From Fragum whitleyi (taxonomy: Eukaryota > Mollusca > Bivalvia > Cardiida > Cardiidae), in the NCBI GenBank assembly GCA_948146395.1, contig OX411549.1, positions 32,138,693 to 32,202,692 on the forward strand: DNA of 64,000 nt. Direction: 5' to 3'. The position numbers were made by a program, and so were the translations under genes. Below the pieces are notes generated by a model. It had not been told where the DNA came from and did no database searches. It was given only the letters and a program-made list of their open reading frames with translations. Positions 18,588 through 36,428 of the stretch are shown here, one piece after another. The stretch's first letter is position 1. Each line of letters starts with the position of its first letter.

Positions 18588-18621
18588 TCTTTCTTGGTGT
18601 TGGGTGGTCCTGAAAAGGACC
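18588..18621 (-). terminator. histone-like 3' end site of the leftmost gene
   Basis: On the minus strand, 32 nt after the stop codon at 18654, comes GGTCCTTTTCAGGACC (18621-18606): a 6-bp stem with UUUC loop, preceded by AAAAC and followed by ACCCA. Nine nt later is CAAGAAAGA (18596-18588). Stem length, loop, ACCCA tail and downstream purine block all match the metazoan histone stem-loop and histone downstream element. The site lies inside the left TIR. Confidence 0.85.
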
Positions 18622-18653
18622 GTTTTTGTTGGTTGATAGTTCTGCTATTCATC

Positions 18654-19298
18654 TCAGCACTTCTTTTTGGTCTTTGGTTTCTTGAAGTTTTCGATGTTTT
18701 TGCCGTACGCACCCATCCCTGTCATTGTAGGAATTTTGTATCCCCTCTCTTTTTCTGAACAATGTCTTTTACTTGGACGAACATTTTCCGTTGATGATGA
18801 TGATCTCTTGGTGGACGAAGTGTGTGACGATTGCTTCTTTTTCATCACAGTCATAATACTATCTACGAGTTTGTGAAAGTTCGTTTGTTCAAAGTCAAAT
18901 TCAACTGGAATCTTCAGCGGTGTTGGTTTGAATGTGACTGGAGATGATGATTGTTGACACAATTTTTGAACATTTTGGTTAAGAATCTGTATTCTCTCCG
19001 TCAGTGACTTGAAATCCAAAAAAGATTTGTTGAAGGTATTCAGCTCCGCAATAATTTTTATCATGATAGCTTCTTGTCGCGAATTCATGGTTTTCAATTC
19101 AGCGAGGATGTTTTGAAGAACAACATCATTGGTACTCACTGGTTGGTAATTCTGTTGAATTGTTGATGAATTCTCCTGAGGTCCAAGTATCTGACAACTC
19201 TGCGATCCAAATGTTGAATCCATGGCTGATGCTAGCAAATCATCGTGTGTGATATTTGCCTGAGACATGATTTCTTGTAAATTGAAATCTGAATTCAT
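18654..19298 (-). CDS. Polinton leftmost gene, unknown function
   Basis: A 214-aa protein I do not recognise. The N-terminal third is polar (Q, S, T, N). Residues about 55-115 look like coiled coil (ILAELKTMNSRQEA, FLDFKSLTERIQILNQ). The C-terminal third is basic with nuclear-localisation-like clusters (KRSSSS..PSKRH, KKPKTKKK), suggesting a nuclear oligomeric protein. It reads outward toward the left tip. Its stop lies 5 bp from the TIR, and its mRNA 3' end would be formed in the TIR by the histone-like site at 18588-18621. Its promoter at 19343-19446 is shared in sequence with the gene at the opposite end, so the two are probably co-expressed. Confidence 0.75.
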   Translation of the reverse strand: MNSDFNLQEIMSQANITHDDLLASAMDSTFGSQSCQILGPQENSSTIQQNYQPVSTNDVVLQNILAELKTMNSRQEAIMIKIIAELNTFNKSFLDFKSLTERIQILNQNVQKLCQQSSSPVTFKPTPLKIPVEFDFEQTNFHKLVDSIMTVMKKKQSSHTSSTKRSSSSTENVRPSKRHCSEKERGYKIPTMTGMGAYGKNIENFKKPKTKKKC

Positions 19299-19342
19299 TT
19301 TTGCATGTGTTCGCTTCGGAGGTTGACGAACGACTGATGAAG

Positions 19343-19446
19343 TTTTATACTGTTAGCCTACAGTGTAGGGACGCGCGGACCTTGGCGAAAGCACCTTTAC
19401 TTTGACAAGTAAAATGGACGTCGAGATGGGAATTTGTGTTTTCTCA
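19343..19446 (-). promoter_or_regulatory. promoter of leftmost Polinton gene, shared module
   Basis: On the minus strand it contains GAGAAAACACAAATT, ATCTCG, AAAGGTGCTTTC, CAAGGTCCGCG and then TATAAAA (19349-19343), 45 nt upstream of the ATG. The same blocks in the same order and spacing occur at 35891-35978 before the last gene, though the surrounding sequence differs. Confidence 0.75.
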
Positions 19447-20053
19447 GTGTTGATTTTTCTCAAATTTCTTCTTTATGATGAAGAAAATGTAAATATTTTC
19501 TATCTCAAACGTTTTGTCAACCTATTCTTTTATCATTTCCATTAAGTTCTTCGCACAATTATTGAACGTGAGGAATAAATTCGCAAAAACTTTTGAAATT
19601 GACGGTGAATTCCTGCTGTAGATCCAATGTTTTTTCCTTTGTTTTCTACCTGAAACTGATTTTATTTTTATTTTGATGACTGGTAATGTAAGCTGAGATG
19701 TATTACTTGTCATTTTTATCATTTTCGACTGATAAAGAGTTGAAATCTTATCATTATTCAATCTTAACGCGAGTATTTGAAACACGCTGATTTAAAACCG
19801 GTTGCCTATCGCTTTAAAATGTAAAACTCCGATATGAAACTGGTATCGGTGTACATGTCAGATAAAAATCGATATTTTATGTAGATGGGTGGATTAAACT
19901 CGCAAGTGAAGCATTGTTTTACTTGACTTAGCGTATTGTTGAATTTATTTGGAAATGCGATATTGGGTCTATGAAATCTTGTAACTACATTCTGAATACT
20001 TTATACGGGTTATGTTTGGTGTATTTTAAATGTGACAATTTGAAAAATGGATG
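19447..20053. other. no supported gene inside left Polinton arm
   Basis: The only frame is an 87-codon minus-strand ORF at 19522-19785 with no recognisable domain, no clear TATA box and no hairpin or AATAAA after it. It may be a small gene but is not supported. Confidence 0.4.
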
Positions 20054-20087
20054 CATTCTTGCAATATGGTTGGTCCTGAAAAGGACC
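20054..20087 (-). terminator. histone-like 3' end site of the 79-aa gene
   Basis: Minus strand: GGTCCTTTTCAGGACC (20087-20072), 23 nt after the stop codon, preceded by TAAAC and followed by AACCA. CAAGAATG (20061-20054) follows 10 nt later. The hairpin is identical to the TIR one although the surrounding sequence differs. Confidence 0.8.
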
Positions 20088-20110
20088 GTTTATTCTAGAG
20101 GAAAGAGATT

Positions 20111-20350
20111 CTAACCCCAGTATTCTTCCTCCCTGTAAATACCGGGAATGTTCGGGTGAACTCTTTCTCTCCTTGGCTGTCCGATGGGTTCCAAGAACTC
20201 GTTCACTACCCAGTCATCTGCCATCTTTGGTGTCCAAATCCCGGTCTCCCATCTTGCTTTGTACCGGATTTGCTCAAGAAGCAAAACCTGCGATGGTGGC
20301 GGGTGCCTAATGTAGATCACGGCAAATGATCGGATGTTTTCAGAGTCCAT
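20111..20350 (-). CDS. small Polinton protein, unknown function
   Basis: A 79-aa protein of no known family, rich in W, P and E (for example RWETGIWTPKMADDW). I accept it as a gene because it sits between a TATA-type promoter (TATAAAA at 20399-20393, 43 nt before the ATG) and a histone-like 3' site right after the stop. It is divergent from the 122-aa gene at 20565, with 214 bp between the starts. Its promoter shares GTGCTTCC and a GGT.CGCG block with those of the two terminal genes. Confidence 0.7.
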   Translation of the reverse strand: MDSENIRSFAVIYIRHPPPSQVLLLEQIRYKARWETGIWTPKMADDWVVNEFLEPIGQPRRERVHPNIPGIYREEEYWG

Positions 20351-20392
20351 GTTTCAGTTTCAGAGAATGAATTTCTTAAGGAACTGACGTCT

Positions 20393-20432
20393 TTTTATAC
20401 CCTAAAGAGAGCGCGTACCCGGGAGGAAGCAC
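20393..20432 (-). promoter_or_regulatory. promoter of the 79-aa gene
   Basis: Reading on the minus strand: AAGTGCTTCC (from about 20434), CCGGGTACGCGC, then GGGTATAAAAAG. The order GTGCTT, GGT(C)CGCG, TATAAA matches the core of the terminal-gene promoters at 19343-19446 and 35891-35978. Confidence 0.6.
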
Positions 20433-20484
20433 TTGAATTCTCTCAAAGTCATCTGAAGGTTATTATGTTCGTTTTATCTATATA

Positions 20485-20531
20485 GGTCAGTGGGTCAGTA
20501 GGTTAGTAGGTCATCTCAAACAGTATTTAAA
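20485..20531 (+). promoter_or_regulatory. GGTCAGTA octamer repeats and TATA-like box
   Basis: Four head-to-tail 8-bp units (GGTCAGTG, GGTCAGTA, GGTTAGTA, GGTCATC) occupy 20485-20515, followed by TATTTAAA at 20524-20531, 33 nt before the ATG of the 122-aa gene. Probably its promoter. The octamers look like an activator-binding cluster lying between two divergent genes. Confidence 0.55.
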
Positions 20532-20564
20532 TGCAGTTTTCCATACATTTTTTCATATTGAAAG

Positions 20565-20933
20565 ATGAATTCTGTATTTGATTTCTTTCGACGCATCTTT
20601 AAGAAAATGAAGAAAGAGAAAGTCGATGATGAACTGAAGCAAAGAAACCAGGCTTTGTATGAATTTATGTTGCGGCGTGGATATAATTTCTATACGAAGA
20701 AGAAGTTAGTGAAGACGGGAAATTTATATCCTGATCTTTCAACCTTCAAACCACCAACTGAACATTCCGGGTGGAAAGAGAAAATGTTACAGTTGTATCC
20801 AACCATGCCTTCCTTTCATGTGAAAGATAGGAATATGTACCCTGATCTTTCGGAGTTCATGCCACCTACTGAATGTAGTGAATGGAAAAGGGGGATGGTA
20901 CAATTATATCCAAGTTTAACTTCTTTTCATTGA
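20565..20933 (+). CDS. small protein with two 33-aa YPDL repeats
   Basis: A 122-aa protein of unknown family. The N-terminus is basic and amphipathic (residues 1-28, FFRRIFKKMKKEK). Two repeats follow at residues 53-85 and 90-122, each of the pattern YPDLS.F.PPTE.S.WK..M.QLYP...SFH. This gives YPDL twice (55-58, 92-95), YPSL once (115-118) and YPTM (78-81). YPx(n)L is the known late-domain motif by which enveloped viruses recruit ALIX of the ESCRT machinery. A similar role here is an attractive inference, not shown. It has a TATA-like box 33 nt upstream and a histone-like 3' site 28 nt after the stop. Confidence 0.8.
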   Translation: MNSVFDFFRRIFKKMKKEKVDDELKQRNQALYEFMLRRGYNFYTKKKLVKTGNLYPDLSTFKPPTEHSGWKEKMLQLYPTMPSFHVKDRNMYPDLSEFMPPTECSEWKRGMVQLYPSLTSFH

Positions 20934-20961
20934 AATGATGTTGAACTTGGAGAAATCAAAA

Positions 20962-20995
20962 GGTCCTTTTAAGGACCATCCAATTGTCTTGAAAG
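20962..20995 (+). terminator. histone-like 3' end site of the 122-aa gene
   Basis: GGTCCTTTTAAGGACC (20962-20977), 28 nt after the stop, preceded by TCAAAA and followed by ATCCA. CTTGAAAG (20988-20995) follows 10 nt later. It differs from the other three hairpins only in the last loop base. Confidence 0.8.
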
Positions 20996-21060
20996 TTTTT
21001 AACTTTTCTGCAAATTTGGGTGGATGGTGAAAAATAAAAAGGAGGCAATGTTTTTTTAAA

Positions 21061-21066
21061 TTTATT
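21061..21066 (-). terminator. AATAAA poly(A) signal of the zinc-knuckle gene
   Basis: TTTATT on the plus strand (AATAAA on the minus), about 139 nt after the stop of the 303-aa gene. No histone-like hairpin is present for this gene. Confidence 0.55.
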
Positions 21067-21204
21067 CAAATACAAAATAAATGAAACATGAAATGGTAAT
21101 ATGACAAACAATCATTATTTAATCATTACAAGAACAAAATGTCTATGTACATTTAAATGTCTCTTCTATAGAATGCCTTTTAAATGTCTATTTGTTTAAG
21201 TTCC

Positions 21205-22116
21205 TTAGTTTTGTTTCCTTTTCTTCTTTGGGATGTCAGATTCAGTCTTTGTCTTTCTCTTTCTTGACTTCTTTGTTTCGTCAATCACTAGTGTAGGGCA
21301 AATGTCTTTCTCCGGGTGATCGCTGGTCTTACAGAAGAAACAGTTTTGATTCTCCTCATTCATGATGATAGTGTCCGATTTGATATCATTTAGGTTTGAT
21401 ATCTCTTCACTACCCACTTTTTCCTGAGAACAGATTTTCTCAGTCTGACTCTCTGTTTCGTTTTTCACATTGTCAATTGTCTGACCGTCATTTTTCTGGG
21501 TGTCATTTACTTCATGGTTATTAATGTCCTGTTGAACATGAGCAGTTTGAGTTTCCACTGAACATTTGTTTTTTAGTGTATTTGTTGGTCCGAACTTTTG
21601 CACAGTGTTTTTTCTATCAACCCTTAAACAGTACCTGTTATGTTCATTACAGTGTGATAGGAATGCGCCAACGTATTCCATATTGTCCAGATCTGGTGTT
21701 CGATCGTTTCTCCTTGAGATCATGATGTCGTGGGTTATTGGATTCACATATACGAAAGCATAGTAAGACTCCTTCCTCGTCTTCTCAGGACAATCTTTCG
21801 CAAAGTGACCCTTTTCGTGACAGATGAAACAAAATTCAGGTCTTCTCATCCCCGGAGCATATATCTCATCTATGGTAAGTGTATCAAATACATTCTGTTT
21901 TGTAATCCGATATTCATCATTGCTGAACTGGTAAGACATGAACATACCAACGTATGGTCCAATATGCTGAATTTGGTAGTCCGCTGGTATGTTGGTTATT
22001 TCGTATTCATGGGTGTATGGGTTAACGTACACCTGCATACGTTTTCTGTTCTTTATCTTTTTCACAACTTCTGACACAATGTCATAACAATTCATGTTCT
22101 TAGCTAATTCAGACAT
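21205..22116 (-). CDS. Polinton zinc-knuckle protein with duplicated domain
   Basis: A 303-aa protein. Two related segments (about residues 28-72 and 122-166) share VYVNP.TH....I...YVG.F.S...N..YR/CL. Between them is a perfect CCHC zinc knuckle, CFICHEKGHFAKDC (C96, C99, H104, C109), as in retroviral Gag and cellular RNA-binding proteins. A second Cys/His cluster (C259, C262, H267, C273) has one extra residue before the last Cys. A Q/N/E-rich linker precedes it and a basic nuclear-localisation-like tail (KKSRKRKTK...KKKRKQN) ends the protein. A role in single-stranded nucleic acid binding is inferred. It is divergent from the polymerase gene, with 158 bp between the starts, and each gene has its own TATA box. 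Confidence 0.85.
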   Translation of the reverse strand: MSELAKNMNCYDIVSEVVKKIKNRKRMQVYVNPYTHEYEITNIPADYQIQHIGPYVGMFMSYQFSNDEYRITKQNVFDTLTIDEIYAPGMRRPEFCFICHEKGHFAKDCPEKTRKESYYAFVYVNPITHDIMISRRNDRTPDLDNMEYVGAFLSHCNEHNRYCLRVDRKNTVQKFGPTNTLKNKCSVETQTAHVQQDINNHEVNDTQKNDGQTIDNVKNETESQTEKICSQEKVGSEEISNLNDIKSDTIIMNEENQNCFFCKTSDHPEKDICPTLVIDETKKSRKRKTKTESDIPKKKRKQN

Positions 22117-22173
22117 GTCTTCTCTCTACAAAGATTTGTGAGTGAATGATGAAATACCATGAAAGCTACGTGG

Positions 22174-22219
22174 TATTTATACAGTTATGAACTGGTGAGT
22201 CATGAATACCCTATAAAAG
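22174..22219. promoter_or_regulatory. divergent promoters of zinc-knuckle and PolB genes
   Basis: TATAAATA on the minus strand (22181-22174) is 58 nt before the zinc-knuckle ATG. TATAAAAG on the plus strand (22212-22219) is 56 nt before the polymerase ATG. The two TATA boxes are only 30 bp apart, so the genes are probably co-regulated. Confidence 0.7.
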
Positions 22220-22274
22220 CTGTGATTTGTTTCATTTCGATATCAGTTCTTTGTGAACACCCGAAAGAGAAATC

Positions 22275-25200
22275 ATGTCAAAACGAAAAAGGGAAGATGA
22301 TAATGATGAATGGATTCCACTCCATAAACGTAAGTGGAAAAGAATTAAACTTTTGGACTACAGTGACTCAGAGTCTAATGAGTCAAACAAAGCAAGTGAG
22401 TCGGAAAAAGATGTTCCGATGCAAGATGATACTGATTCATCTGATGATGAATTTTGGATACCAAAAAAGAAAAGGCCAAAACCTATTGAATCGGATGATG
22501 AAGTAGAAGAAGAAAAATCGCCTGGATCTATGAGAGAAAAATACAAGCTGTCCAAAGTAATAAATAAGAAGTCCAGGTTATTTAGAACTGACTCACATGT
22601 TGTGTCAGTGACATTTAAAGAATTTGATGAAATTTCACCTCAACAACTTGGAACTTTGTTTGATGATATTACAACCCAACTGAGCGAGACACTTGATACT
22701 GAACCAGATGACAAAATCAGAGTTACCATCAACCACCCCGCTTTAGATATGGGGATACATATACCTTTCATGGATGTTCGTGATTTAAATGGTGAAATAT
22801 TCTTAAGTGAGATTGAAAAAGTCATGCAGTCAAATACTGAATTCAAGGTAGATGATGGTGAAATGAAATTAGATGTTACACACACACGATTACCAAGTGG
22901 CGGAGGAAAAAGAAAGGTAGTTGAACTTGATACGAAAGTTTTTGCAAAGAAGAAAAAATCAATTGTTGAAATTAAAAATGCAGAAGACAGTATGTGTTTT
23001 GCAAGGGCAGTTGTCGTTGGAAAACATTATGTTAACCGAGATGATAGTGATGAATGGAAAAGAAAATGGAATTTTATTCAACGTTCAAACAAGACGATGC
23101 AAAAGGAGGAAGCTGAACGTTTACTGATGGAAGTAGGAATTTCTCCTAACAAACCATGTGGAGTTGATGAGTACAAGCTGGTCCAGACCTATTTGTACGA
23201 GCAGAACTATGTGATCAAAGTCCATCAACAACATTCAAAAGTGGAAATGACATTTCAACATCCAGTAGTGCACCAGGATAGCAAAGTGATACATTTGTAT
23301 TACCATCAAGGACATTATGACTTTATCACAAGTATGACAGGGTTTCTATCCTGTGGCTATTATTGTGAATTTTGTGATGTTGGATATGATCATAGAGAGT
23401 CGCATTACTGTGAGTACATTTGTTCAGCTTGTTTCACATCCCCTCGTTGTGATATTTACAACATAGAATTTTACTGTCATGGTTGTAAAAGAAAGTTTTT
23501 TGGTCAAGAATGCTTTGATAATCATAGAAGAATTGAAGGTAAAAAGAAAAAATCCATATGTAATCTGGTAAAACTTTGCAGTAAATGCAAGCAACAATAC
23601 AATGTTAGAACAAATAATCATGTTTGCAAAGGCATGAAAAGGTGTCGTTACTGCAAAAAGGTTACTAATTCTGATCATCGTTGTCATATTCAGCCTTACG
23701 AAAGTAAGATACAGAAAGGCGACAATGGTGATAGAGAATTTAAAAAAGAAAAAAAGTCTTGCAAGGATGATCAAAGTGATGATGATGTGGATGATGATGA
23801 TGTAGGTGATATAAAGAATAAACCATTGTTTATTTTCTATGATTTCGAATGCAAGCAAGATACTGGTCTACATATTCCAAACTATTGCATAGCACAGAGA
23901 GCTTGTGATGAATGCATAGATAAGTCACTTGATTATCACTGTTCAACATGCAGTGAGTTTGCCGAAGGAAGGGAGGTTATATTTCAAGGTGATAGCACTC
24001 TGACTGATTTTTGTAAATGGCTTTTCTCTAAGCAGCACAAGGGTATGACTGCTATAGCTCACAATGCAAAAGGATACGATGCCCAATTTATCTTGAATGA
24101 AATAATAAGAATTGGGAATCAACCCCCATCTCTGATCATGAATGGTAACAGTATCATGAAATTGGAGTTGAATGGAGTTCGTTTGATCGACTCCTATAAC
24201 TTCATGAACTTTCGTCTTGGTAAATTCCCTGATACGTTTGGTCTGGAAGAAATGAAAAAGGGGTTCTTTCCTCATCTTGCCAACACTGATCAGTTTTGGG
24301 ACTATGATGGTCCATATCTTGATACCTCCTATTACATGTGTGACTCTATGTCCCCAGAATTAAGAAAAGAGTTCATGAAATGGTATAATGAAAAGGTTAC
24401 AAACAAAGAAACTTTCAATTTTCAAAAAGAAATGGAGTCATATTGTCGTTCAGATGTTGATATCCTCAGAAGGGGGTGTGGTCATTTCAGGAAAGTGTTT
24501 ATTGAGTACGGAGGTATTGATCCATTACTGGAAGCTATAACAATAGCTGATGCATGTAACAAGGTCTGGAGAAGTAGATATTTGCCCAAAGGTCAAATTG
24601 CAATTATTTCAAGTAAGGATTCCTCCAGACGTCGTTTCTCTATGAAAGCCATTCGTTGGCTCCAAAGTATTGCAAATGAAAAGGGCATCTTTATCCAGCA
24701 TGCCCGGAATTTGGGAGAATTTGAGATCAAGTCTTTATCTGTTGATGGATTTCATGCAGAAACCAACACAGTGTACGAATTTCTTGGTGATCTATGGCAC
24801 GGTTGTCCAGTCTGCTACCCAAACCGTTTACAAACCAACCCAATTAATGGTTTTACGATGCAAACTTTGTATAACGATACAATGGCCCGTCTACAATATC
24901 TAAAGAGGTTAGGCTATAAAGTAGAATACATTTGGGAACATGAGTTTGATGCAAGAGTAAAAAAAGACAAAGATTATCGTGAATTAATCAATGGTTTATT
25001 CCCATACTCTGACCCAATAGATCCAAGGGACGGACTGTATGGCGGGCGTTGTAATGCAGTCAAGATTGCTCATGAGATAGACGAATCAAGTGAAAAAGAA
25101 ATTAAGTACATTGACATTTGCTCTTTGTATCCTTATGTATGCAAGTATAAATCCTACCCTGTTGGTCACCCGAAAGTCCTGACAAGCGAAAGCATTGACA

Positions 25201-26384
25201 TTCAAAACATTAGGCAGTATGAAGGTCTTGTCAAATGTAAGGTGTTGCCACCTGATGATTTGCTTCACCCTATTTTACCCGTACATTGTAATAACAAAAT
25301 GATGTTTCCACTATGTAGAACATGTGCGGAAGAAAGTTCACAGACTTGCTCTCACAATGAAAACGAGAGAGCGTTGATAGGAACATGGGTCACAGTTGAA
25401 TTGTTCAAGGCTTTGGACTGTGGCTACAGATTACTTCATGTCTTTGAAGTTTGGCACTTTGAATCTCTCTCCAATAATTTCTTTAGGGGGTATGTTGACA
25501 ACTTTTTGAAAATTAAACAAGAAGCCAGTGGTTATCCTGAATGGTGTAAAACCCAAGATGACAAAGATACATTTATTCGGGAATATGAATCAGATGAAGG
25601 AATCAGTCTCGATCCTACAATGATTAAAAAGAACAAAGGAAGAAGGGCATTTGCAAAGATAATGTTAAATTGTCTATGGGGAAAACTTGCCCAAAGAGAG
25701 GTATTGACCCAATCAGAATATATATCAAAACCATCAAAATACTTTGAACTGGTCAACAACCCTAACTACATTATCAAACATGTAGAAATATTCAATGAAG
25801 AATGTCCATTCATTCTGGTAAACTATGAATCAAAGCTGGATCATGTTGAGACCCATGGAACAGCCAATGTCATTGTCGGATCATATGTTACGGCCTATGC
25901 TAGACTTGAATTATATAGCATCCTAGAAAAACTGAATGATAGAGTGTTGTACTTTGACACTGATAGTTGCATGTACATTCATGACCCACAGTTATGGAAT
26001 CCACCTATTATCAATAGTAGATTGGGGAAATGGACCGATGAAGAACCCAACTCAAAAATTGTTAAGTTCAGAGGGTTGGGTCCAAAAAACTATGCATATC
26101 AATTGGTTACCAAAGATGGTGATATTGAAAGTAAATGTAAAGTCAAGGGTATAACCTTAGACTACAAAACTTGCAAGTTGGTCAATTTTGATGCATTTAC
26201 AAAATGTATGCAGGATCGAAGTACTGAAATTAAGATAACCTATGACTGTAGAATCAGGAGACATAGAGATAGAAAAGTCACTAGTGAAGCACAAACAAAA
26301 ACATTTAGATCAGTATATACAAAGAGAGTAATGGTCAATGATATAGATACTGTCCCATTTGGACATGAAAGTATTAGGGTATAA
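22275..26384 (+). CDS. pPolB: protein-primed family B DNA polymerase
   Basis: A 1369-aa replicative polymerase of the Polinton/adenovirus/phi29 protein-primed group that copies the linear element. The N-terminus is acidic and basic with a KKSIVEIKNAEDSMCFARAV motif (about 228) common in Polinton polymerases, followed by a Cys/His-rich region (about 365-470). Exonuclease motifs: FYDFE (about 521), AIAHNAKGYD (about 595), YCRSDVD (about 722). Polymerase motifs: A, DICSLYP (about 945); B, KIMLNCLWG (about 1126, where many homologues have NSxYG); C, YFDTDS (about 1226). FLGDLWHGCPVCYP (about 835) is a conserved Polinton insertion. The frame is intact and intronless. A TATA box lies 56 nt upstream and AATAAA 4 nt after the stop. 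Confidence 0.97.
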   Translation: MSKRKREDDNDEWIPLHKRKWKRIKLLDYSDSESNESNKASESEKDVPMQDDTDSSDDEFWIPKKKRPKPIESDDEVEEEKSPGSMREKYKLSKVINKKSRLFRTDSHVVSVTFKEFDEISPQQLGTLFDDITTQLSETLDTEPDDKIRVTINHPALDMGIHIPFMDVRDLNGEIFLSEIEKVMQSNTEFKVDDGEMKLDVTHTRLPSGGGKRKVVELDTKVFAKKKKSIVEIKNAEDSMCFARAVVVGKHYVNRDDSDEWKRKWNFIQRSNKTMQKEEAERLLMEVGISPNKPCGVDEYKLVQTYLYEQNYVIKVHQQHSKVEMTFQHPVVHQDSKVIHLYYHQGHYDFITSMTGFLSCGYYCEFCDVGYDHRESHYCEYICSACFTSPRCDIYNIEFYCHGCKRKFFGQECFDNHRRIEGKKKKSICNLVKLCSKCKQQYNVRTNNHVCKGMKRCRYCKKVTNSDHRCHIQPYESKIQKGDNGDREFKKEKKSCKDDQSDDDVDDDDVGDIKNKPLFIFYDFECKQDTGLHIPNYCIAQRACDECIDKSLDYHCSTCSEFAEGREVIFQGDSTLTDFCKWLFSKQHKGMTAIAHNAKGYDAQFILNEIIRIGNQPPSLIMNGNSIMKLELNGVRLIDSYNFMNFRLGKFPDTFGLEEMKKGFFPHLANTDQFWDYDGPYLDTSYYMCDSMSPELRKEFMKWYNEKVTNKETFNFQKEMESYCRSDVDILRRGCGHFRKVFIEYGGIDPLLEAITIADACNKVWRSRYLPKGQIAIISSKDSSRRRFSMKAIRWLQSIANEKGIFIQHARNLGEFEIKSLSVDGFHAETNTVYEFLGDLWHGCPVCYPNRLQTNPINGFTMQTLYNDTMARLQYLKRLGYKVEYIWEHEFDARVKKDKDYRELINGLFPYSDPIDPRDGLYGGRCNAVKIAHEIDESSEKEIKYIDICSLYPYVCKYKSYPVGHPKVLTSESIDIQNIRQYEGLVKCKVLPPDDLLHPILPVHCNNKMMFPLCRTCAEESSQTCSHNENERALIGTWVTVELFKALDCGYRLLHVFEVWHFESLSNNFFRGYVDNFLKIKQEASGYPEWCKTQDDKDTFIREYESDEGISLDPTMIKKNKGRRAFAKIMLNCLWGKLAQREVLTQSEYISKPSKYFELVNNPNYIIKHVEIFNEECPFILVNYESKLDHVETHGTANVIVGSYVTAYARLELYSILEKLNDRVLYFDTDSCMYIHDPQLWNPPIINSRLGKWTDEEPNSKIVKFRGLGPKNYAYQLVTKDGDIESKCKVKGITLDYKTCKLVNFDAFTKCMQDRSTEIKITYDCRIRRHRDRKVTSEAQTKTFRSVYTKRVMVNDIDTVPFGHESIRV

Positions 26385-26388
26385 AAAC

Positions 26389-26394
26389 AATAAA
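26389..26394 (+). terminator. AATAAA after the polymerase gene
   Basis: Lies 4 nt beyond the PolB stop codon. It is the nearest poly(A) signal to this gene, and no histone-like hairpin follows. Confidence 0.45.
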
Positions 26395-28399: not shown

Positions 28400-28456
28400 A
28401 TGGGTGAACTTGTGATCATTCAAGTCCAGTCTTTTGATCTATGTCATTGAGTGAAC

Positions 28457-29386: not shown

Positions 29387-29446
29387 TAAATACTTTTGAT
29401 ATTACACGCTCTTTATCATTTATGATTTATCTGAAGAAGTGGTAAC

Positions 29447-29818
29447 ATGGTAAAAAAAATAAGAAAAGTTCCTTTAATTAGGAAACATGGTCATATGGTT
29501 ATGGCATTAATGAAATCTTCACCGAAGCTAAGAAAAAAATTAGTAAAAGAATTATCATCTCCAGTGATAAGATGTATATCAGAATGTTGTCACAATGTTT
29601 TAAAAGGCAATGTACACCTAACAGATGCTCAGAAGAAGAAGTTGTATTCAAACCGTCAACATCTTCGAAATCTTGCTTCAAAATCAGTGTCTGTAAAAAA
29701 GAAGAAACGCATTTTGAATCAGAAGGGTGGATTTCTCCCATTGTTAGGGTCTGCATTAATACCATTATTAGGTAAAGCTGTCATAGGAGGGATTGGTGGT
29801 GCAATTAAAGCTTTATAA
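29447..29818 (+). CDS. small basic Polinton protein with GGFLPLL tail
   Basis: A 123-aa, strongly basic protein whose C-terminus runs RILNQKGGFLPLLGSALIPL and then a glycine-rich hydrophobic end. This Lys-rich plus GGFLP arrangement is common in Polinton genomes; the function is not established. A core or internal capsid protein is likely from its charge and its place in the late block. The region around residues 68-110 is similar to residues about 60-105 of the preceding protein. Confidence 0.85.
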   Translation: MVKKIRKVPLIRKHGHMVMALMKSSPKLRKKLVKELSSPVIRCISECCHNVLKGNVHLTDAQKKKLYSNRQHLRNLASKSVSVKKKKRILNQKGGFLPLLGSALIPLLGKAVIGGIGGAIKAL

Positions 29819-29831
29819 TCATAGGATAAAA

Positions 29832-30686
29832 ATGTCAGTAAGAAAAATGGTCATTGTTCCTTTCCAAGTACTTAATGATTTGAAGCAATGGAGAGATGAA
29901 CAAAGTCAAAAACCTATTTTACCACAAAATCCACAAGTAACCAATGTTTCCCACCTTTATAAGGATATGAAAAATACATTAGAAAGAACTGATATTTCTG
30001 AAACAGACAAAGCACAAACGTATGGAGAAACATTGTTCAAACTACAAAATTCATTTGAAAAAGTGAAAAATCCAACATTACCCCAATCTTCAAAAAATCA
30101 AGAAGCGGATCCAAGAACAGAATCAATAAATGTTTCATTACATGATCGTATCTTAGAAAGTGTACCTAAAACCATGCAGAGAAAAGCTAAGCTTCTGTTA
30201 AATATTCTTAGAGATAAAGATAACATATCATGGGATAATCAAGGTATGGTAACATATAAAGGAAAACCCATCCCAGGTTCAAATATCATTGATCTCATAA
30301 ATGATTCATTACGTAAGAGAAAAGGAATTGAACCTAAAGGTTGGGAAGTATTCTCTAAAGCTTTACATGAAAGCAATGTTCCACAAGAAGTAGTCGGAAA
30401 CATGTCAAGATGGCAATGGATGCAAAAATATCTGCCTGAAAGTGAATCTAGTGAATCAGAAATAAGTTTTAGTACGCCCTTTAAAACCCCCGCCAGAAGT
30501 TTAGTAAGATCTCCATCCAAAATGAAAACCATAAAGAAGAGAACCTTAAGCCACTTAAGAAAAATGTCACCATATGCCACGACTCATGAAAAAGAAAAAA
30601 GAAAAGATCTTTACACTCAACAACTTTTAAGTCCTATAAAAAAAGATTCAATTTCTAAAAGTCTTCAGTCATGGGAGGCATACTGA
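29832..30686 (+). CDS. conserved Polinton protein of unknown function
   Basis: A 284-aa protein, starting at the ATG at 29832, 13 nt after the previous stop. A central domain (about residues 110-205) includes KAKLLLNILRD, MVTYKGKPIPGSNIIDLIND and PKGWEVFSKALHESNVPQ, a pattern I associate with a hypothetical protein found beside the integrase in many Polintons. The C-terminal 80 residues are Ser/Lys/Pro-rich and basic. Its last 16 nt overlap the start of the integrase gene in another frame. Confidence 0.85.
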   Translation: MSVRKMVIVPFQVLNDLKQWRDEQSQKPILPQNPQVTNVSHLYKDMKNTLERTDISETDKAQTYGETLFKLQNSFEKVKNPTLPQSSKNQEADPRTESINVSLHDRILESVPKTMQRKAKLLLNILRDKDNISWDNQGMVTYKGKPIPGSNIIDLINDSLRKRKGIEPKGWEVFSKALHESNVPQEVVGNMSRWQWMQKYLPESESSESEISFSTPFKTPARSLVRSPSKMKTIKKRTLSHLRKMSPYATTHEKEKRKDLYTQQLLSPIKKDSISKSLQSWEAY

Positions 30687-31789
30687 AGCGTAAGTCCAAA
30701 GAAGCACTGTTAAGAAAATTATATTATGGATTAAATAAAAATAAAGTTGCATATTCAAGCATAAAAGAATTATACAAAGCAGCGAAGTCCATTTTGAAAA
30801 CCATATCATATCAAGATGTTAAAAAATGGTTGCAAGGCGAATCAACATACACCTTGCATAAACCTATTCGAAGAAAATTTCAAAGACGTAAAACAATTGT
30901 TGCAGGAATCGATCACCAATGGCAAGCTGATTTAGCAGACATGCAACAATTTTCAAATCAAAATAATGGGTTAAGATATTTACTTTGTGTTATTGATGTC
31001 TTTTCAAAATTTGCATGGGTAGTACCTATCAAGAATAAGATGGGAAAAACATTGATAAATGCATTTCAGTCCATCCTTAAATCAAGAAAACCTTTATCAT
31101 TACAAACAGATAAAGGAAGTGAGTTCAAAAACAAAGACTTTCAAACGTTTTTGAAAAAGAAAAAGATCCATTATTTCACTACAGATAATCCAGAGACTAA
31201 AGCAAGTATTGTGGAAAGATTTCAACGTACGTTGAAAACTAGAATGTGGAAATATTTCACTCATGAAAAAACACGAAGATACATTGATGTTCTTCAAAAC
31301 TTTGTGAATAATTATAACAATACTTTTCACCGGAGCATAAAAGCAAATCCATCAGATGTTAATCATTCTAATGAAGCAAAAATTTCAGAGAACTTATATG
31401 CAAAAAGTGAAACAAAAGTGATTAAGAAGATAAAAAAGAAACCAAAATTAAAGAAAGGTGATCGTGTTCGTATCAATAAAACAAAACATACATTTGAGAA
31501 AGGATATCTTCCAAATTGGACACAAGAAATATTTGAAATCACTCATGTAAATTCAAAAACTTCTCCAATCACATATAAAATTAAAGATTTAGCAAATGAA
31601 CCTATCCTTGGGTCATTTTATGAACAAGAATTGCAACTTATAAAAGATGATGAAGTTTATGAAATAGATTCAGTTCTTGATAAGCGAACAAGACGTGAAG
31701 GTAAAAAAATAGTCAAAGAAATTAAAGTCAGTTGGAAAGGTTATCCTAAAAAATTTCAGAGTTGGATACCAGAATCATATTTAACGTGA
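30671..31789 (+). CDS. INT: DDE integrase with C-terminal chromodomain
   Basis: A 372-aa retrovirus-like (rve) integrase that inserts the element with a 6-bp stagger. The catalytic triad is D87 (WQADLADMQ), D147 (LQTDKGSEF) and E182 (KASIVERFQRTLK). A basic SH3-like linker (KPKLKKGDRVRINK, about 258-271) follows. Residues about 327-371 form a chromodomain (VYEIDSVLDKR, IKVSWKGYPKKFQSWIPESY), which in related integrases reads histone methyl-lysine and directs insertion. It overlaps the preceding gene by 16 nt. Confidence 0.96.
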   Translation: MGGILKRKSKEALLRKLYYGLNKNKVAYSSIKELYKAAKSILKTISYQDVKKWLQGESTYTLHKPIRRKFQRRKTIVAGIDHQWQADLADMQQFSNQNNGLRYLLCVIDVFSKFAWVVPIKNKMGKTLINAFQSILKSRKPLSLQTDKGSEFKNKDFQTFLKKKKIHYFTTDNPETKASIVERFQRTLKTRMWKYFTHEKTRRYIDVLQNFVNNYNNTFHRSIKANPSDVNHSNEAKISENLYAKSETKVIKKIKKKPKLKKGDRVRINKTKHTFEKGYLPNWTQEIFEITHVNSKTSPITYKIKDLANEPILGSFYEQELQLIKDDEVYEIDSVLDKRTRREGKKIVKEIKVSWKGYPKKFQSWIPESYLT

Positions 31790-31823
31790 TTTGAAAAAAC
31801 TTATAAAAACTTAAGTAATTATC

Positions 31824-32111
31824 ATGCAATCTCAGTTGGAATCTGGAGGTGACAGTGTTAGTCAGTCAACTCCTTTCACATGTTTTGGAAATCGTGTCCC
31901 TAAAAATCAGTTCACTTATGTATCACAAATAATAGTCATTTATGCCATTATTGCTACATCTATAGTACATCTTAGTATTCAAAGTGATAATCGTGAATTG
32001 TGGTTAATTCTTCTCAGTAGTTCTTTAGGCTACATTCTACCATCACCCGGATTAAAATTCACAAAACAGAATAAACATTCAGCATTTGATTTCATTGATG
32101 GTAAAAAATGA
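31824..32111 (+). CDS. small two-helix membrane protein
   Basis: A 95-aa protein with two hydrophobic segments, about residues 33-51 (VSQIIVIYAIIATSIVHL) and about 60-73 (LWLILLSSSLGYIL), and short polar ends. Two-helix proteins of this size occur between the integrase and capsid genes of many Polintons. A role at a virion membrane is only a guess. Its TGA overlaps the next ATG (ATGA). Confidence 0.8.
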   Translation: MQSQLESGGDSVSQSTPFTCFGNRVPKNQFTYVSQIIVIYAIIATSIVHLSIQSDNRELWLILLSSSLGYILPSPGLKFTKQNKHSAFDFIDGKK

Positions 32112-33019
32112 ATTCCTTCTACATAACTTTGCCTAGTGATAGTTCTTTGAACTATTTTCCTTCAAACACACAATGTTGTTTTAAAGTGAAATTACCTAAA
32201 ACTGTTCATATTGATAAAGAAGATTGGGAAGTTGGACTTGCACAATTGATAACACCAAGTCAATTCCTAAATATCAGTGAAGAAGAAGCCAGGTTTGATA
32301 TCATCACGGCAGATACTGGTATTTACAAAAAAATATCTGAAGAAAATAAAAGAAAACCCAATCCATTAGAAATTACTGTCCTTAAAACTATTTCAACAGG
32401 ACATGCTGCAAAATGGGGAATCAAATTTCGTTTCACACCTGGGTCTTACATCTCGCCATCTCATGTGTTAGATGTAGTCAATGAATGCATTGATGATGAA
32501 ATTGGAAAAGTGCTTCATGATAGTAATGCAACTATTCACGTTGGATATTCTGAATCATCAAAACGTCCAAAGTTTGAATTCAGAAATATTAACAAAACAG
32601 GAATTAAATTCAATAAATCCTTATTTCAAAAACTTGGTGGTGATCCTTTGTTTGATGGAAAAACAATTTACAAAGGTCGAAGTGTTTTTGAAATGTTTAA
32701 ATATTCACCAAACATTGATGCAGGATATAATCATTTATTTGTATATTCAGACATTGTTGAATATTCCATTGTTGGTGATACATTAGTTCCAATACTTCGA
32801 GTTGTACCATTTAAAACATCTAATTCCATTGAAAATGATAATGGAAGTCAACATATTAATCATGAAATTATTGCTCCACATTATTTTCCAGTTTCAAAAT
32901 CAGATTTTGATTCCATTCACATTAATATAACAGGTGATTCTGGTCATCCTATTCAGTTTGTCATTGGCAAGACAATAGTAAAGTTGCATTTTCGTAAGCG
33001 CAAAGAAAATCAAAAATAA
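32108..33019 (+). CDS. mCP: minor capsid (penton) protein, single jelly-roll
   Basis: A 303-aa protein with the Polinton penton opening (MNSFYITLPSDSSLNYFPSN) and then KVKLPKTVHIDKEDWEVGLA, typical of this family. It is predicted to form the fivefold vertices together with the major capsid protein at 33441. Length is normal and the frame intact. It starts inside the stop of the membrane-protein gene by a 4-nt ATGA overlap, which hints at coupled translation. Assignment rests on the family pattern and position. Confidence 0.88.
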   Translation: MNSFYITLPSDSSLNYFPSNTQCCFKVKLPKTVHIDKEDWEVGLAQLITPSQFLNISEEEARFDIITADTGIYKKISEENKRKPNPLEITVLKTISTGHAAKWGIKFRFTPGSYISPSHVLDVVNECIDDEIGKVLHDSNATIHVGYSESSKRPKFEFRNINKTGIKFNKSLFQKLGGDPLFDGKTIYKGRSVFEMFKYSPNIDAGYNHLFVYSDIVEYSIVGDTLVPILRVVPFKTSNSIENDNGSQHINHEIIAPHYFPVSKSDFDSIHINITGDSGHPIQFVIGKTIVKLHFRKRKENQK

Positions 33020-33027
33020 AAAAAAAC

Positions 33028-33408
33028 ATGGTACCTGTTTATAGAGGTGTTCAACATCAATATGGTTTTGGCTTAGGGTCTTTGTTTAAATCTGCATTAA
33101 GATCAGTAACACCACTAATAAAACCTATGGTGAAATCAGGACTGCATGCAATAAAAGATGAAGGTATTAAACAAGGATTAGGAATAGCACAAGACATTTT
33201 AGTACATCGTAAAAAGCCCAAGAAAGTTCTCATGTCACGGGGAAAACAATCCTTGAAACATTTGACTAACAAGTTGTTATCGAGTATAAATGAAAAGAAA
33301 TCAAGCAATGCACATCATTCTCATTCTCGATCTCGTCGTGGTAAGATCACGTCAAAGAAACATCGAACTAACAAAAGGCCAGCCAGACCATTAGACATTT
33401 TTGATTAA
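33028..33408 (+). CDS. small basic capsid-associated protein
   Basis: A 126-aa protein with a glycine-rich amphipathic start (YGFGLGSLFKSALRSVTPLI) and an Arg/Lys/His/Ser-rich tail. Similar small proteins sit between the two capsid genes in other Polintons. The amphipathic N-terminus plus basic tail recalls membrane-active or DNA-binding core proteins of adenoviruses, but I see no sequence match. It starts 8 nt after the penton gene's stop. Confidence 0.82.
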   Translation: MVPVYRGVQHQYGFGLGSLFKSALRSVTPLIKPMVKSGLHAIKDEGIKQGLGIAQDILVHRKKPKKVLMSRGKQSLKHLTNKLLSSINEKKSSNAHHSHSRSRRGKITSKKHRTNKRPARPLDIFD

Positions 33409-33440
33409 CATTATTGTTTAAATCCAAAAAAGAAAAAAAG

Positions 33441-34751
33441 ATGATGCAAAGTGGATCATGTGAGTGTAGTAAAACTGAGTTAGATGTATTATCAGTACCT
33501 CCTACCATGACAAGCATGCAGGAATCTCAGTGGGTTGAACATTTTCCTGTTGCATCAATTGCAAATGATTCACCAATAGAATTTATGATACCACCTCAAA
33601 CAGAGTTTTGGACGGATTTATCACAGTCCTTTCTGTATGTAAAATTTAAAATCATCCAAGCAGCAGATGAATCGCCTTTAGCAGATGATGCTAACATTGC
33701 ACCAGTGAATAATTTCTTACATAGTATGTTCAGTAACATAGATCTATACCTGAATAACAAACTGATAACCAGTGGATCAAATAATTATCCATACAGAGCC
33801 TACATTGAAAACCTTTTGTCATATAGTCCAGAAAGTAAGAAAACTCATTTGAGAGCAGGAGAACTCTGGATTAAAGACACAGCAGGACATATGAACGATG
33901 CTCAAACCAACGGAAATAACGAAGGGGTTAAACAACGAATAGCGGCTATTGCGGAAAGTAAGACAGTGGAATTATTCGGACGTCTTCATCTAGATGTTTT
34001 TCTCCAGGAAAAATATCTTCCCAATGGAGTGGAAATCAGACTAAGATTAAATAAGTCACGTCCAGAATTTTGCATTATTCAACATACAGGTGAACCCAAA
34101 GTTAAAATTCAGTTTGAATCAGTAAGTTTCCATGTTAGAAATGTTGAATTGTCACCAGTAGTTGCAAATAATCTGAACCAACTCATCGCACAGAATAATA
34201 TGAAAATCCCTATTCGTAGAGTAGAAGTCAAAACATTTTCAATCACTAACGGTACTCTATCAAAAGTAGAAGATCATTTGTTCCAAGGCCAGTTACCAAA
34301 ACGTGTTTTTATTGGAATGGTAACAAATGGAGCCTTCAATGGATCTTATACATCAAACCCATTCAACTTTTCTCATTTCAACGTAAGAAAAATAGCCGTA
34401 TCATGCAATGGACACAGTATTCATGGTAAACCATTTGAACCTGACTTCACAAATGGACTAACACTGAGATCATATCTGTCTTTGTTCAATGCCACAAAAT
34501 CCATTGGTGCTGACAAATCATTTGGTATAACAAAAGAGGAATATGATGCTGGTTTCGCTCTTTGGGGTTTTGATCTCACACCAGATCAAGGCAGTGAAGA
34601 AGGACAGTTGCATCCTATAAAAACTGGAGGCTTGAGAATAGAACTTCAGTTTGGATCTAACCTTGCTAGAGTCATCAACGTTATTGTTTTCGCTGAATTC
34701 GATAATCAAATCGAAATCAACAGTCTTAGAGAAGTTATAACTGATTACTAA
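33441..34751 (+). CDS. MCP: major capsid protein, double jelly-roll
   Basis: A 436-aa major capsid protein, expected to form pseudo-hexameric trimers. I take the ATG at 33441 as the start. The family is widely annotated as C. elegans F54H12.2-like. Visible family patterns include FWTDLSQSFLYVKFKI, PVNNFLHSMFSNIDLYLN and NNYPYRAYIENLLSY in the first half, and GRLHLDVFLQEKYLPNGVEI and FVKTFS-like strands in the second. No break is seen. It is followed 5 nt later by the 150-aa gene. Confidence 0.93.
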   Translation: MMQSGSCECSKTELDVLSVPPTMTSMQESQWVEHFPVASIANDSPIEFMIPPQTEFWTDLSQSFLYVKFKIIQAADESPLADDANIAPVNNFLHSMFSNIDLYLNNKLITSGSNNYPYRAYIENLLSYSPESKKTHLRAGELWIKDTAGHMNDAQTNGNNEGVKQRIAAIAESKTVELFGRLHLDVFLQEKYLPNGVEIRLRLNKSRPEFCIIQHTGEPKVKIQFESVSFHVRNVELSPVVANNLNQLIAQNNMKIPIRRVEVKTFSITNGTLSKVEDHLFQGQLPKRVFIGMVTNGAFNGSYTSNPFNFSHFNVRKIAVSCNGHSIHGKPFEPDFTNGLTLRSYLSLFNATKSIGADKSFGITKEEYDAGFALWGFDLTPDQGSEEGQLHPIKTGGLRIELQFGSNLARVINVIVFAEFDNQIEINSLREVITDY

Positions 34752-34756
34752 AAATC

Positions 34757-35209
34757 ATGCTTGGATACCAGTACGCCATAAAACTTAGAGAAGAAGCAGA
34801 GAAAGTGAAATATTCATCAAACATTGAATCAGTTCGTAAAAATGACATTCACAACAGTTTTCAAAAGTGTATGGTGGATCAACTGCAAGAACTTATCAAT
34901 GAAGAAGTTCATAACAATTGTAACGGGTGTCAAATAGATCATCCGAGTCAGATAGAACACCCTGTTTGCTTATTCATGAGTAGAGAAGAACATACAGACT
35001 TGTTCATTGAGCAAGCAATGCTTAAAGTAAATCCATACAAAATAATGCAGGCATGGTATCCACAACTTGAAGAATTAAAACTAAACGAACAAGAATCAGT
35101 AGAAGCCTATCGCCTATGGCAAAGTATAAAAAAGAACATTTTGTGCGGATTCACAGATACATGGCTAGAACGTTGGAGTGAGAAAGTAAAGCAGTCTTGG
35201 GATCAATAA
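34757..35209 (+). CDS. conserved small Polinton protein with Cys/His motif
   Basis: A 150-aa protein with CNGCQIDHPSQIEHPVC (about residues 55-71), a possible zinc site of the C..C...H.....H..C type. The rest is helical and charged (LNEQESVEAYRLWQSIKKN). Proteins with this DHPSQ..H motif sit next to the major capsid gene in other Polintons; the function is unknown. Its stop TAA shares one base with the protease ATG (TAATG). Confidence 0.82.
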   Translation: MLGYQYAIKLREEAEKVKYSSNIESVRKNDIHNSFQKCMVDQLQELINEEVHNNCNGCQIDHPSQIEHPVCLFMSREEHTDLFIEQAMLKVNPYKIMQAWYPQLEELKLNEQESVEAYRLWQSIKKNILCGFTDTWLERWSEKVKQSWDQ

Positions 35210-35676
35210 TGTACACCAGTGAAATTCAACATATCTTGGATCGTGGAGTGTGGATTAAAAATCTCAATGGAAGAGTGTGTGCAAAGGATTTATTACCAAA
35301 GCGAAAACCTTCACATGTGAAGGCTTATATCATCAATACAGCAGATTCATATAACTCAGGAGAACATTGGGTAGCAGTTATATTCTATCCAAATGGTAAA
35401 GCAATGTACTTTGACTCATATGGACTTCCGCCACTTCATAGGGAAATATCTCATTTTATCCAAAATAATTCACGTTCATGGACTTATAATAACCAACCTA
35501 TTCAAAGCATCCTTGGAAAAGTTTGTGGACACTATTGTATTTTTGCCTTGGATGGGGTAGCAAGAGGATACAACTTAAAAAAACTTCTAAGAAAGACATT
35601 CAGCACAAGGAACTTACACAAAAATGACAGAGTAGTCACATCGTGGTTCATACAGACATTTAGCAGAATTGTATAG
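35209..35676 (+). CDS. PRO: adenain/Ulp1-like cysteine protease
   Basis: A 155-aa maturation protease that would process capsid or core proteins. The catalytic residues are visible: H53 (GEHWVAVIF), D69 (MYFDSYG), Q99 and C106 (Q-x6-C, KVCGHYC). The Q to C spacing is the same as in adenovirus protease. The start is the ATG at 35209, which overlaps the previous stop (TAATG). It is the last gene of the one-strand block, and an AATAAA lies 78 nt after its stop. Confidence 0.94.
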   Translation: MYTSEIQHILDRGVWIKNLNGRVCAKDLLPKRKPSHVKAYIINTADSYNSGEHWVAVIFYPNGKAMYFDSYGLPPLHREISHFIQNNSRSWTYNNQPIQSILGKVCGHYCIFALDGVARGYNLKKLLRKTFSTRNLHKNDRVVTSWFIQTFSRIV

Positions 35677-35753
35677 ACATTTTGTAATATAAAATTGATT
35701 GTAAATATGTTCATGATTGTTCATTTTTGTTCTTAGTTCACAGTTCATTGTTC

Positions 35754-35759
35754 AATAAA
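35754..35759 (+). terminator. AATAAA poly(A) signal ending the late block
   Basis: Lies 78 nt after the protease stop and is followed by a GT-rich stretch (TTTGTGTTTTGTTGAC). It is the best candidate 3' end for transcripts of the compact gene block. Confidence 0.6.
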
Positions 35760-35890
35760 ATATAGAAAATGTAAATATTTGTGTTTTGTTGACGTTTAAT
35801 ATTCCATCTTTCTCATGATTGTTCATGATAAAGGTAAAAGAATCGGATTCATGATAAAGAATAATGAGTAATATCGTATTTTCATGCTTG

Positions 35891-35978
35891 GAGAAAACAC
35901 AAATTTCAATCTCGGCATCCATTTCTTCAATTCAAAGTAGAGGTGCTTCCAGCAAGGTCCGCGTCGTCAATATAAATA
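35891..35978 (+). promoter_or_regulatory. promoter of rightmost gene, shared module
   Basis: Contains GAGAAAACACAAATT, ATCTCG, AGAGGTGCTTCC, CAAGGTCCGCG and TATAAATA (35971-35978), in the same order as the left-end promoter at 19343-19446. The ATG is 36 nt beyond the TATA box. The match spans about 75 bp in DNA outside the TIRs. Confidence 0.75.
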
Positions 35979-36013
35979 CATAGCAGATTTTCCACTGTTT
36001 AACATTCTAGATC

Positions 36014-36361
36014 ATGGAACCGATTCGTAGAGAACTCACCGATATAGCAAAGGAATTGCTGAACATTGCTGAGCGACTGTATCGCGTGCAGGGAATGATT
36101 AGAGATACTCAAATCATTTCTCCACAAGAAAATGCCATTGAGCAGACACCAACGAATAATCTGCAAGATGTCATTTACTTGGATAGACCCATCTTGGGTA
36201 GGACAACAGAACAACTAAACAGAGCACTACCTGATGTCATCTACATGGGTACTCAATTTAGGAGAAGAGTGGTATGGAATGGAGAATCATTGGTCATAAA
36301 GAAAAGAATGAGGAGGCATTGTCCAATTTGCAATGCACGATTTGGATGCAGCCACTACTAA
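36014..36361 (+). CDS. Polinton rightmost gene, zinc-site protein
   Basis: A 115-aa protein of unknown family. The N-terminal half is helical. Two related segments, DVIYLDRP (52-59) and DVIYMGTQ (74-81), resemble SUMO-interacting motifs (hydrophobic core next to an acid), which is speculative. The C-terminus RHCPICNARFGCSHY has C103, C106, C112 and H114 as likely zinc ligands. It reads outward. Its stop is 6 bp from the TIR, which supplies a histone-like 3' site. It shares its promoter module with the leftmost gene. Confidence 0.8.
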   Translation: MEPIRRELTDIAKELLNIAERLYRVQGMIRDTQIISPQENAIEQTPTNNLQDVIYLDRPILGRTTEQLNRALPDVIYMGTQFRRRVVWNGESLVIKKRMRRHCPICNARFGCSHY

Positions 36362-36394
36362 AATATGATAGCAGAACAATCAACCAACAAAAAC

Positions 36395-36428
36395 GGTCCT
36401 TTTCAGGACCACCCAACACCAAGAAAGA
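36395..36428 (+). terminator. histone-like 3' end site of the rightmost gene
   Basis: GGTCCTTTTCAGGACC (36395-36410) begins 34 nt after the stop, preceded by AAAAAC and followed by ACCCA. CAAGAAAGA (36420-36428) starts 9 nt after the stem. It is the TIR counterpart of 18588-18621. Confidence 0.85.

Follow-up and report, generated by a model that had tools for sequence, protein, structure and literature searches.

Histone-like promoter boxes and 3′-end signals on four non-histone genes of a Polinton in the bivalve Fragum whitleyi

Introduction

According to a 2007 account, no animal genes other than replication-dependent histone genes are known to produce hairpin-ended mRNAs without a poly(A) tail (PMC1924863). 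SLBP binds the hairpin, the U7 small nuclear ribonucleoprotein (snRNP) pairs with a purine element further downstream and CPSF73 cleaves between the two, according to the available parts of PMC7026596 and PMC1924863. We analyzed a 64-kb window of the genome of the bivalve Fragum whitleyi (the host; contig OX411549.1, positions 32,138,693 to 32,202,692) that contains a Polinton element, and observed that four small genes of this element, g1 to g4, resemble metazoan replication-dependent histone genes. They share with them a 6-bp stem, a 4-nucleotide (nt) U-rich loop, an A-rich 5′ flank, an ACCCA-like tail and a purine element at +13/+14, as well as short uninterrupted reading frames and a TATA box close upstream. 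Unlike histone genes, g1 to g4 belong to a mobile element and their predicted products are orphan non-histone proteins; moreover, a single promoter region, that of g2 and g3, combines H1-type and H4-type boxes.

Two further systems are close to this locus. With mollusc Polinton/Maverick elements of the adintovirus type, the window element has in common PolB, a retrovirus-like integrase with a chromodomain, an A32-like ATPase, an adenovirus-type protease, terminal inverted repeats (TIRs) and a 6-bp duplication; unlike those elements as described, it carries histone-type promoters and 3′ ends on its peripheral genes. In mimivirus-type viruses and virophages, hairpin palindromes lie near mRNA 3′ ends. 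The window hairpins are likewise palindromes near gene 3′ ends in a virus-like element, but they fit the histone consensus, occur on a subset of genes and are accompanied by histone promoter boxes. The preliminary description of this DNA knew of no report of histone-type 3′ ends in Polintons; similarly, we found no description of such ends or stem-loops on genes of Polintons or transposable elements in the open full-text literature searched, outside of which subscription papers fall. The available parts of PMC11071296, PMC8905726 and PMC10294476 make no mention of histone-type ends on Polinton genes.

Results

Four small genes of the Polinton end in histone-type hairpins

Genome-wide counts and copies were taken from the whole host genome (1.22 Gb); below, L numbers denote stretches fetched for comparison and C numbers host contigs. 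The genes and their 3′ signals are as follows.

18209..36808, no strand assigned: Polinton element, flanked on both sides by the 6-bp target duplication CTCGCA (18203-18208 and 36809-36814)
18654..19298, minus strand: g1, 214 amino acids (aa), orphan, basic C-terminus; 32 nt from stop to hairpin
18606-18621, minus strand: g1 stem-loop, left TIR, tail ACCCA; Rfam Histone3 37.5 bits
18588-18596, minus strand: g1 purine element CAAGAAAGA, 3′ of the stem-loop, GAAAR at +13
20111..20350, minus strand: g2, 79 aa, orphan; 23 nt from stop to hairpin
20072-20087, minus strand: g2 stem-loop, tail AACCA; Rfam Histone3 30.1 bits with E 5e-5, short of the 34-bit cut-off
20054-20061, minus strand: g2 purine element CAAGAATG, 3′ of the stem-loop, GAATG instead of GAAAR
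20565..20933, plus strand: g3, 122 aa, orphan, YPDLS..PPTE..WK..QLYP segment repeated twice; 28 nt from stop to hairpin
20962-20977, plus strand: g3 stem-loop, loop TTTA, tail ATCCA; Rfam Histone3 34.6 bits
20988-20995, plus strand: g3 purine element CTTGAAAG, 3′ of the stem-loop
36014..36361, plus strand: g4, 115 aa, C-terminal end RHCPICNARFGCSHY; 33 nt from stop to hairpin
36395-36410, plus strand: g4 stem-loop, right TIR, tail ACCCA; Rfam Histone3 37.5 bits
36420-36428, plus strand: g4 purine element CAAGAAAGA, 3′ of the stem-loop

The preliminary description had reported a hairpin after the stop codon of each of these genes, and all four are in place, 23-33 nt past the stops. It had also given the tail as ACCCA or a close variant, which holds: ACCCA follows at both TIR sites, and the internal sites have AACCA and ATCCA. 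Because the ends of the element are set by the CTCGCA duplication, two of the hairpins lie within the terminal repeats; the other two are internal and on opposite strands, as had been proposed. The purine blocks were recovered at all four genes, and GAAAR stands at +13/+14 after the stem, the spacing of host histone genes, at three of them (g1, g3 and g4). With the Rfam Histone3 model (RF00032, curated cut-off 34 bits), a search that the preliminary description had suggested, three of the sites scored above the cut-off and g2 below it. A hairpin pattern allowing up to 3 mismatches matched the window 9 times, compared to a mean of 0.73 in shuffled sequence; apart from a single stray match, these are the four sites read on either strand. 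When all 18 genes listed for the element were considered, the 150 nt past the stop contained a stem of 6 bp or longer that includes four or more G-C pairs at g1 to g4 and at none of the remaining 14, which include the polymerase, integrase, ATPase, capsid candidate and protease genes.

The purine element can also be drawn into a second, A/U-rich hairpin with the U-rich sequence that follows it (GAAAGAATTCATTTTCTTTC at g1 and g4, located at 36422-36442 and in the corresponding part of the left TIR). Neither AATAAA nor ATTAAA occurs within 250 nt of g1 or g4; one or the other is found within that distance at g2, g3 and some other genes of the element.

None of the four genes matched a histone or any other Pfam family above the cut-off, so by Pfam they do not encode histones. 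For g1, no homologue was found at E <= 0.001, and the search with g4 returned a single relative besides itself, P0122. The predicted structures were poor, with a mean predicted local distance difference test (pLDDT) score of 59.5 for g4 and 42.7 for g3. The host genome holds at least 150 scored copies of g4 that are 85-100% identical, 143 of them without an internal stop. Over 25 distinct intact coding sequences, the ratio of nonsynonymous to synonymous polymorphism (pN/pS) is 0.32, a value indicating that g4 is under purifying selection.

The hairpins match the 3′ ends of the host's own histone genes

The preliminary description had called for a comparison with the histone stem-loops of the host. 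The host genome has tandem histone repeats, one of which comprises H2B, H2A, H1, H3 and H4 with a hairpin after each gene. The H1 gene ends in GGTCCTTTTCAGGACC, the same 16-mer as three of the window hairpins, and g3 differs from it by its loop TTTA; the other four genes of the repeat end in GGCCCTTYTMAGGGCC. An exact search of the host genome for GGCTCTTTTMAGAGCC, which we take to be the textbook vertebrate form of the hairpin, gave 0 matches. Four of the five host histone genes, all except H4, have GAAAR downstream of the stem, beginning at +13 or +14. The same spacing is seen at five of six independent sites of Polintons or small genes (g1/g4 counted once, g2, g3, the two L034 sites counted once, L035 and L036), at a chance of 0.013 per site. 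The host encodes SLBP, whose RNA-binding domain was detected in two halves on neighboring stretches of C13 (58.2 and 34.8 bits).

The same genes carry H1-type and H4-type promoter boxes

Upstream of the four genes we observed boxes that also precede host H1 and H4 genes. This observation is new and goes beyond the preliminary description. The H1-type box goes by the name of H1 or AC box, and GGTCCGC may resemble a HINFP site.

19374-19394, minus strand: g1 H1-type box GTGCTTTCGCCAAGGTCCGCG, with AAACACA at 19435-19441 and TATAAA at 19344-19349
20412-20432, minus strand: g2 H1-type box GTGCTTCCTCCCGGGTACGCG, a close variant, with TATAAA at 20394-20399
20483-20517, no strand assigned: H4-type box of 35 nt, common to the divergent genes g2 (minus) and g3 (plus), 32/35 identical to the host H4 promoter
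20524-20531, upstream of g3 (plus): TATTTAAA
35943-35963, plus strand: g4 H1-type box GTGCTTCCAGCAAGGTCCGCG, with AAACACA at 35895-35901 and TATAAA at 35971-35976

Thus histone promoter elements are present at all four genes, of the H1 type in g1, g2 and g4 and of the H4 type in g2/g3. The upstream order in g1 and g4 is AAACACA, GTGCTTYCnnCAAGGTCCGCG and TATA box, and it is the same in the H1 gene of the host cluster and in L021; AAACACA is absent from L022 and present in L023. We compared promoters by Smith-Waterman scores, each set against 300 shuffles, and counted the shuffles that reached the score; for L023, in which no start codon was located, the stretch compared was positioned relative to the box. 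Against three orphan H1 promoters, g4 scored 46-48 (0/300 shuffles) and g1 scored 31 (0, 0 and 1 of 300). The promoter of g2 scored 35 with cluster H1 (0/300) and 55 with H4 (0/300), g3 scored 37 with H4 (0/300), and g1 scored 26 with cluster H1 (1/300). Eight other genes of the element were compared with eight host promoters; none has an H1-type or H4-type promoter, one of the 64 pairs was at 0/300 and the next lowest count was 8.

Across the genome, the H1 box has 349 matches and the H4 box 127, with 0 for either in the reversed control. Place listings for the hairpin and both boxes cover the first 100 matches each. Among the 100 listed for H1, 90 are variants of the main family and 10 others fall at 8 places; seven of these places were fetched, and 3 precede host H1 genes. 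Of the 100 listed for H4, 15 are host H4 repeats and 85 the Polinton variant. H1-type boxes without a recognized gene were seen in L024, L025, L026 and L027, with an inverted pair in L026.

Hairpins are widespread and conserved among genomic copies

An exact search of the host genome for the hairpin GGTCCTTTTMAGGACC gave 447 matches, and the pattern of hairpin plus AAGAAAG gave 194; the reversed control gave 0 for both. Among the first 100 listed places of GGTCCTTTTMAGGACC, 88 are within 20 kb of markers of the main family. The other 12 comprise seven on C2 at ~7.34-7.38 Mb, two in L034 and one each in L035, L036 and L082. At C2:7336172-7377343 (L028), five hairpins are spaced ~10.3 kb apart, and the one that was opened follows a copy of g1 that is 70% identical; this spacing and the g1 copy point to what is probably a tandem array.

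We fetched 33 of the 150 g4 copies: 15 chosen for lacking the exact hairpin, 13 divergent ones and 5 met earlier, four of which were top Histone3 matches. The full six-pair stem is present in 31 of the 33, and the remaining two, the near-duplicates L050 and L051, have one mismatch each. CAAGAAAG is retained in 30. The loop is TTTC in 21 copies, TTTT in 11 and TTAT in 1. Substitutions per site are fewest in the stem (0.013), the purine element (0.017) and the next 40 nt (0.021), and more numerous in the coding sequence (0.039), the loop (0.0985) and the spacer from stop to stem (0.160). The exact H1 box is found in 28 copies, AAACACAAA in 32 and TATAAATA in all 33. The preliminary description had named a lack of hairpin and purine block at the same genes of related elements as evidence to the contrary, and within the host genome both are kept.

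Pairing is also preserved where the stem has changed. In L033, a copy of g2, the third base pair differs, U-A vs C-G, by a change of both partners (GGTCCT..AGGACC vs GGCCCT..AGGGCC). The same switch occurs within a second Polinton family, between L035 and L096 on the one hand and L093-L095 on the other. Over 20 distinct rows that include the host genes and exclude the L050/L051 row, 100% of positions are paired, with 6 double-sided changes, 4 of them in host rows. Over the 16 rows of Polintons and small genes, without host rows and including L050/L051, 99.0% are paired, with 2 double-sided changes, a number matched by 8 of 500 shuffles. L030, L037 and L082 were outside both counts.

A second Polinton family has the same 3′ end on a different gene

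L035 belongs to this second family, whose identity to the window element is 33% for PolB, 28% for the capsid candidate and 38% for the ATPase. A gene of 123-132 aa in this family is followed, 41 nt past its stop, by the hairpin in all five copies that were opened (L035 and L093-L096, of which the last four were fetched as 1 kb each). It has no tblastn match to g1-g4. The trait is therefore not confined to one recent family, and it has been seen in one genome only.

Small orphan genes with a histone-type hairpin and purine element also occur in L034 (968-1306 and 8146-8484) and L036 (1117-1497). No Polinton protein was found within ~7 kb on either side of these hairpins, and that they are parts of Polintons could not be confirmed. 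In L030 and L082, a recurrent reading frame of 70-71 aa lies by two Histone3 matches ~60 nt apart, and neither a histone nor a Polinton was recognized in it.

Polinton genes were further encountered in two bacterial metagenome-assembled genome records, L041 (a Bathymodiolus symbiont) and L042 (Breoghania), where they are probably animal contamination. In IMG/VR, the hairpin patterns were found in 9 contigs and 1 contig with one match apiece, which we took as chance.

The element belongs to a large, young expansion

At 33441-34751 the window element has a gene with 0 Pfam families, which from the gene order we take to be the capsid candidate. At least 96 scored copies of it are present in the host at 97-100% identity, 89 of them without an internal stop. 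These copies indicate a large and young Polinton expansion, with roughly a hundred or more elements in the host genome. The element is a Polinton by its PolB-type polymerase, rve and chromo integrase, A32-like ATPase and adenovirus-type protease (Pfam), in addition to its TIRs and 6-bp duplication. Relatives of the capsid candidate were found in Mercenaria, Saccostrea, Ostrea and Crassostrea, and none was found in scans of IMG/VR.

Discussion

Since g1 to g4 share their 5′ boxes with host H1 and H4 promoters and carry the hairpin and purine element at their 3′ ends, we predict that they are likely transcribed and processed like replication-dependent histone genes. The histone-gene arrangement that the preliminary description had proposed is supported by the identity to host H1, the GAAAR spacing, the retention in related copies and the promoter boxes. 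Their mRNAs would lack a poly(A) tail, bind SLBP and be timed to S phase. Host factors responsible for the S-phase transcription of H1 and H4 would recognize the boxes and thereby time the genes, and the mRNA 3′ ends would be made by the SLBP, U7 and CPSF73 route. The remaining genes, among them those of the polymerase, integrase, ATPase, capsid candidate and protease, would have ordinary polyadenylated or otherwise regulated transcripts. In this way, accessory or regulatory proteins might be expressed when the replication machinery that the element needs is available.

Several observations weigh against this interpretation. Within the window, the g2 hairpin falls under the Rfam cut-off and its purine block reads GAATG. 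The purine elements of g1/g4, g2 and g3 are able to pair with downstream U-rich sequence, which might compete with U7 or gate its access. Among the g4 copies, the loops TTTT (11/33) and TTAT (1/33) deviate from TTTC/TTTA. Conservation of the purine element stems in part from the terminal repeat, because the following 40 nt vary about as little, and the covariation is modest, affecting one pair in 2 of 16 rows. In the promoter comparison, the score of 24 between g4 and cluster H1 was reached by 8 of 300 shuffles, and the control pair at 0/300 joins gene 28457 of the element to H3. The H1 box has no recognized gene at 4 of the 7 fetched places, and in L034, L035 and L036 the 3′ signal is not accompanied by a histone-like promoter. 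GAAAR at host spacing is missing from the unassigned hairpins L030 and L037. As for the processing machinery, a search for the host U7 small nuclear RNA with RF00066 gave no match above the cut-off. A pattern of the complement to the histone downstream element (HDE) plus an Sm site had 65 matches vs 40 in the reversed control, and no U7 was recognized by inspection among five fetched candidates, four of which are one repeat. Finally, the extension to other Polintons that the preliminary description had proposed succeeded for the second family and not for the fragments L041 and L042, which have no Histone3 match. These two are weak negative evidence, because both look decayed, judging by their short reading frames; the hairpin may not be a general Polinton trait.

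In the same U7 search, matches under the cut-off (L009-L016) were found to share a repeat, all except L012, with a U7-like stretch such as CTCTTTGAAATTTGTCTAG. No 3′ hairpin is visible after this stretch in the repeat.

A variant of the histone-like interpretation holds that the genes work in two modes, with histone-type ends in S phase and polyadenylated ends at other times or in other tissues. AATAAA is present at +17 in g2, ahead of the hairpin, and at +100 and +143 in g3, past it, so that polyadenylated forms are possible and count against an exclusively tail-less output. In Drosophila, signals of this kind come into use in the absence of SLBP (PMC1924863). The lack of AATAAA and ATTAAA within 250 nt of g1 and g4 speaks against this variant, which we regard as unlikely without dismissing it.

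We consider it very improbable that the signals were copied from a host H1/H4 locus by chance recombination and then amplified passively without function. The identity of the hairpin to host H1 and of 32/35 positions of the long box to host H4 does make capture plausible as an origin, and conservation past the purine element is close to that within it. However, the signals stand at both ends of four different genes, the stem has changed at 0.013 substitutions per site across the 33 copies vs 0.160 in the spacer and 0.039 in the coding sequence, and the same 3′ end occurs on a second-family gene that matches none of g1-g4.

There is scant likelihood that the hairpins are generic 3′-end or terminator palindromes read by viral machinery, as in mimivirus-type viruses and virophages, with no link to histones. 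Their position shortly past stops in a virus-like element would suit this explanation, but they occur on 4 of 18 genes with no comparable G-C-rich stem on the other 14, and stem, loop, tail and GAAAR spacing are those of host histone ends on genes that also have histone promoter boxes. That the 16-mer is a DNA-level palindrome, such as a protein-binding or replication site, rather than an RNA signal is the least credible explanation, since only its presence in the terminal repeats at two of four sites favors it, whereas each of the four sites reads in sense orientation 23-33 nt past a stop, two are internal on opposite strands, the asymmetric loop is read in the same sense in 33 copies and pairing survives base changes.

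Returning to histone-like expression, we propose that host Polintons probably contain a histone-mimicking regulon, in which non-histone genes with H1/H4 boxes and a histone 3′ end would yield accessory proteins exclusively during S phase, from mRNAs that lack a tail and are bound by SLBP. The 3′ signal is on different genes of at least two distant families, and these would be the first non-histone genes known to use the full replication-dependent histone program. Expression of g1 to g4 is directly testable in host tissue, because many copies are near-identical and have open frames. If the proposal is correct, a mobile family with ~194 sites of hairpin and purine element in one genome breaks the histone-only rule and offers a natural reporter set for SLBP/U7 processing. 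It would also point to a way in which Polinton expression is tied to DNA replication in the host.

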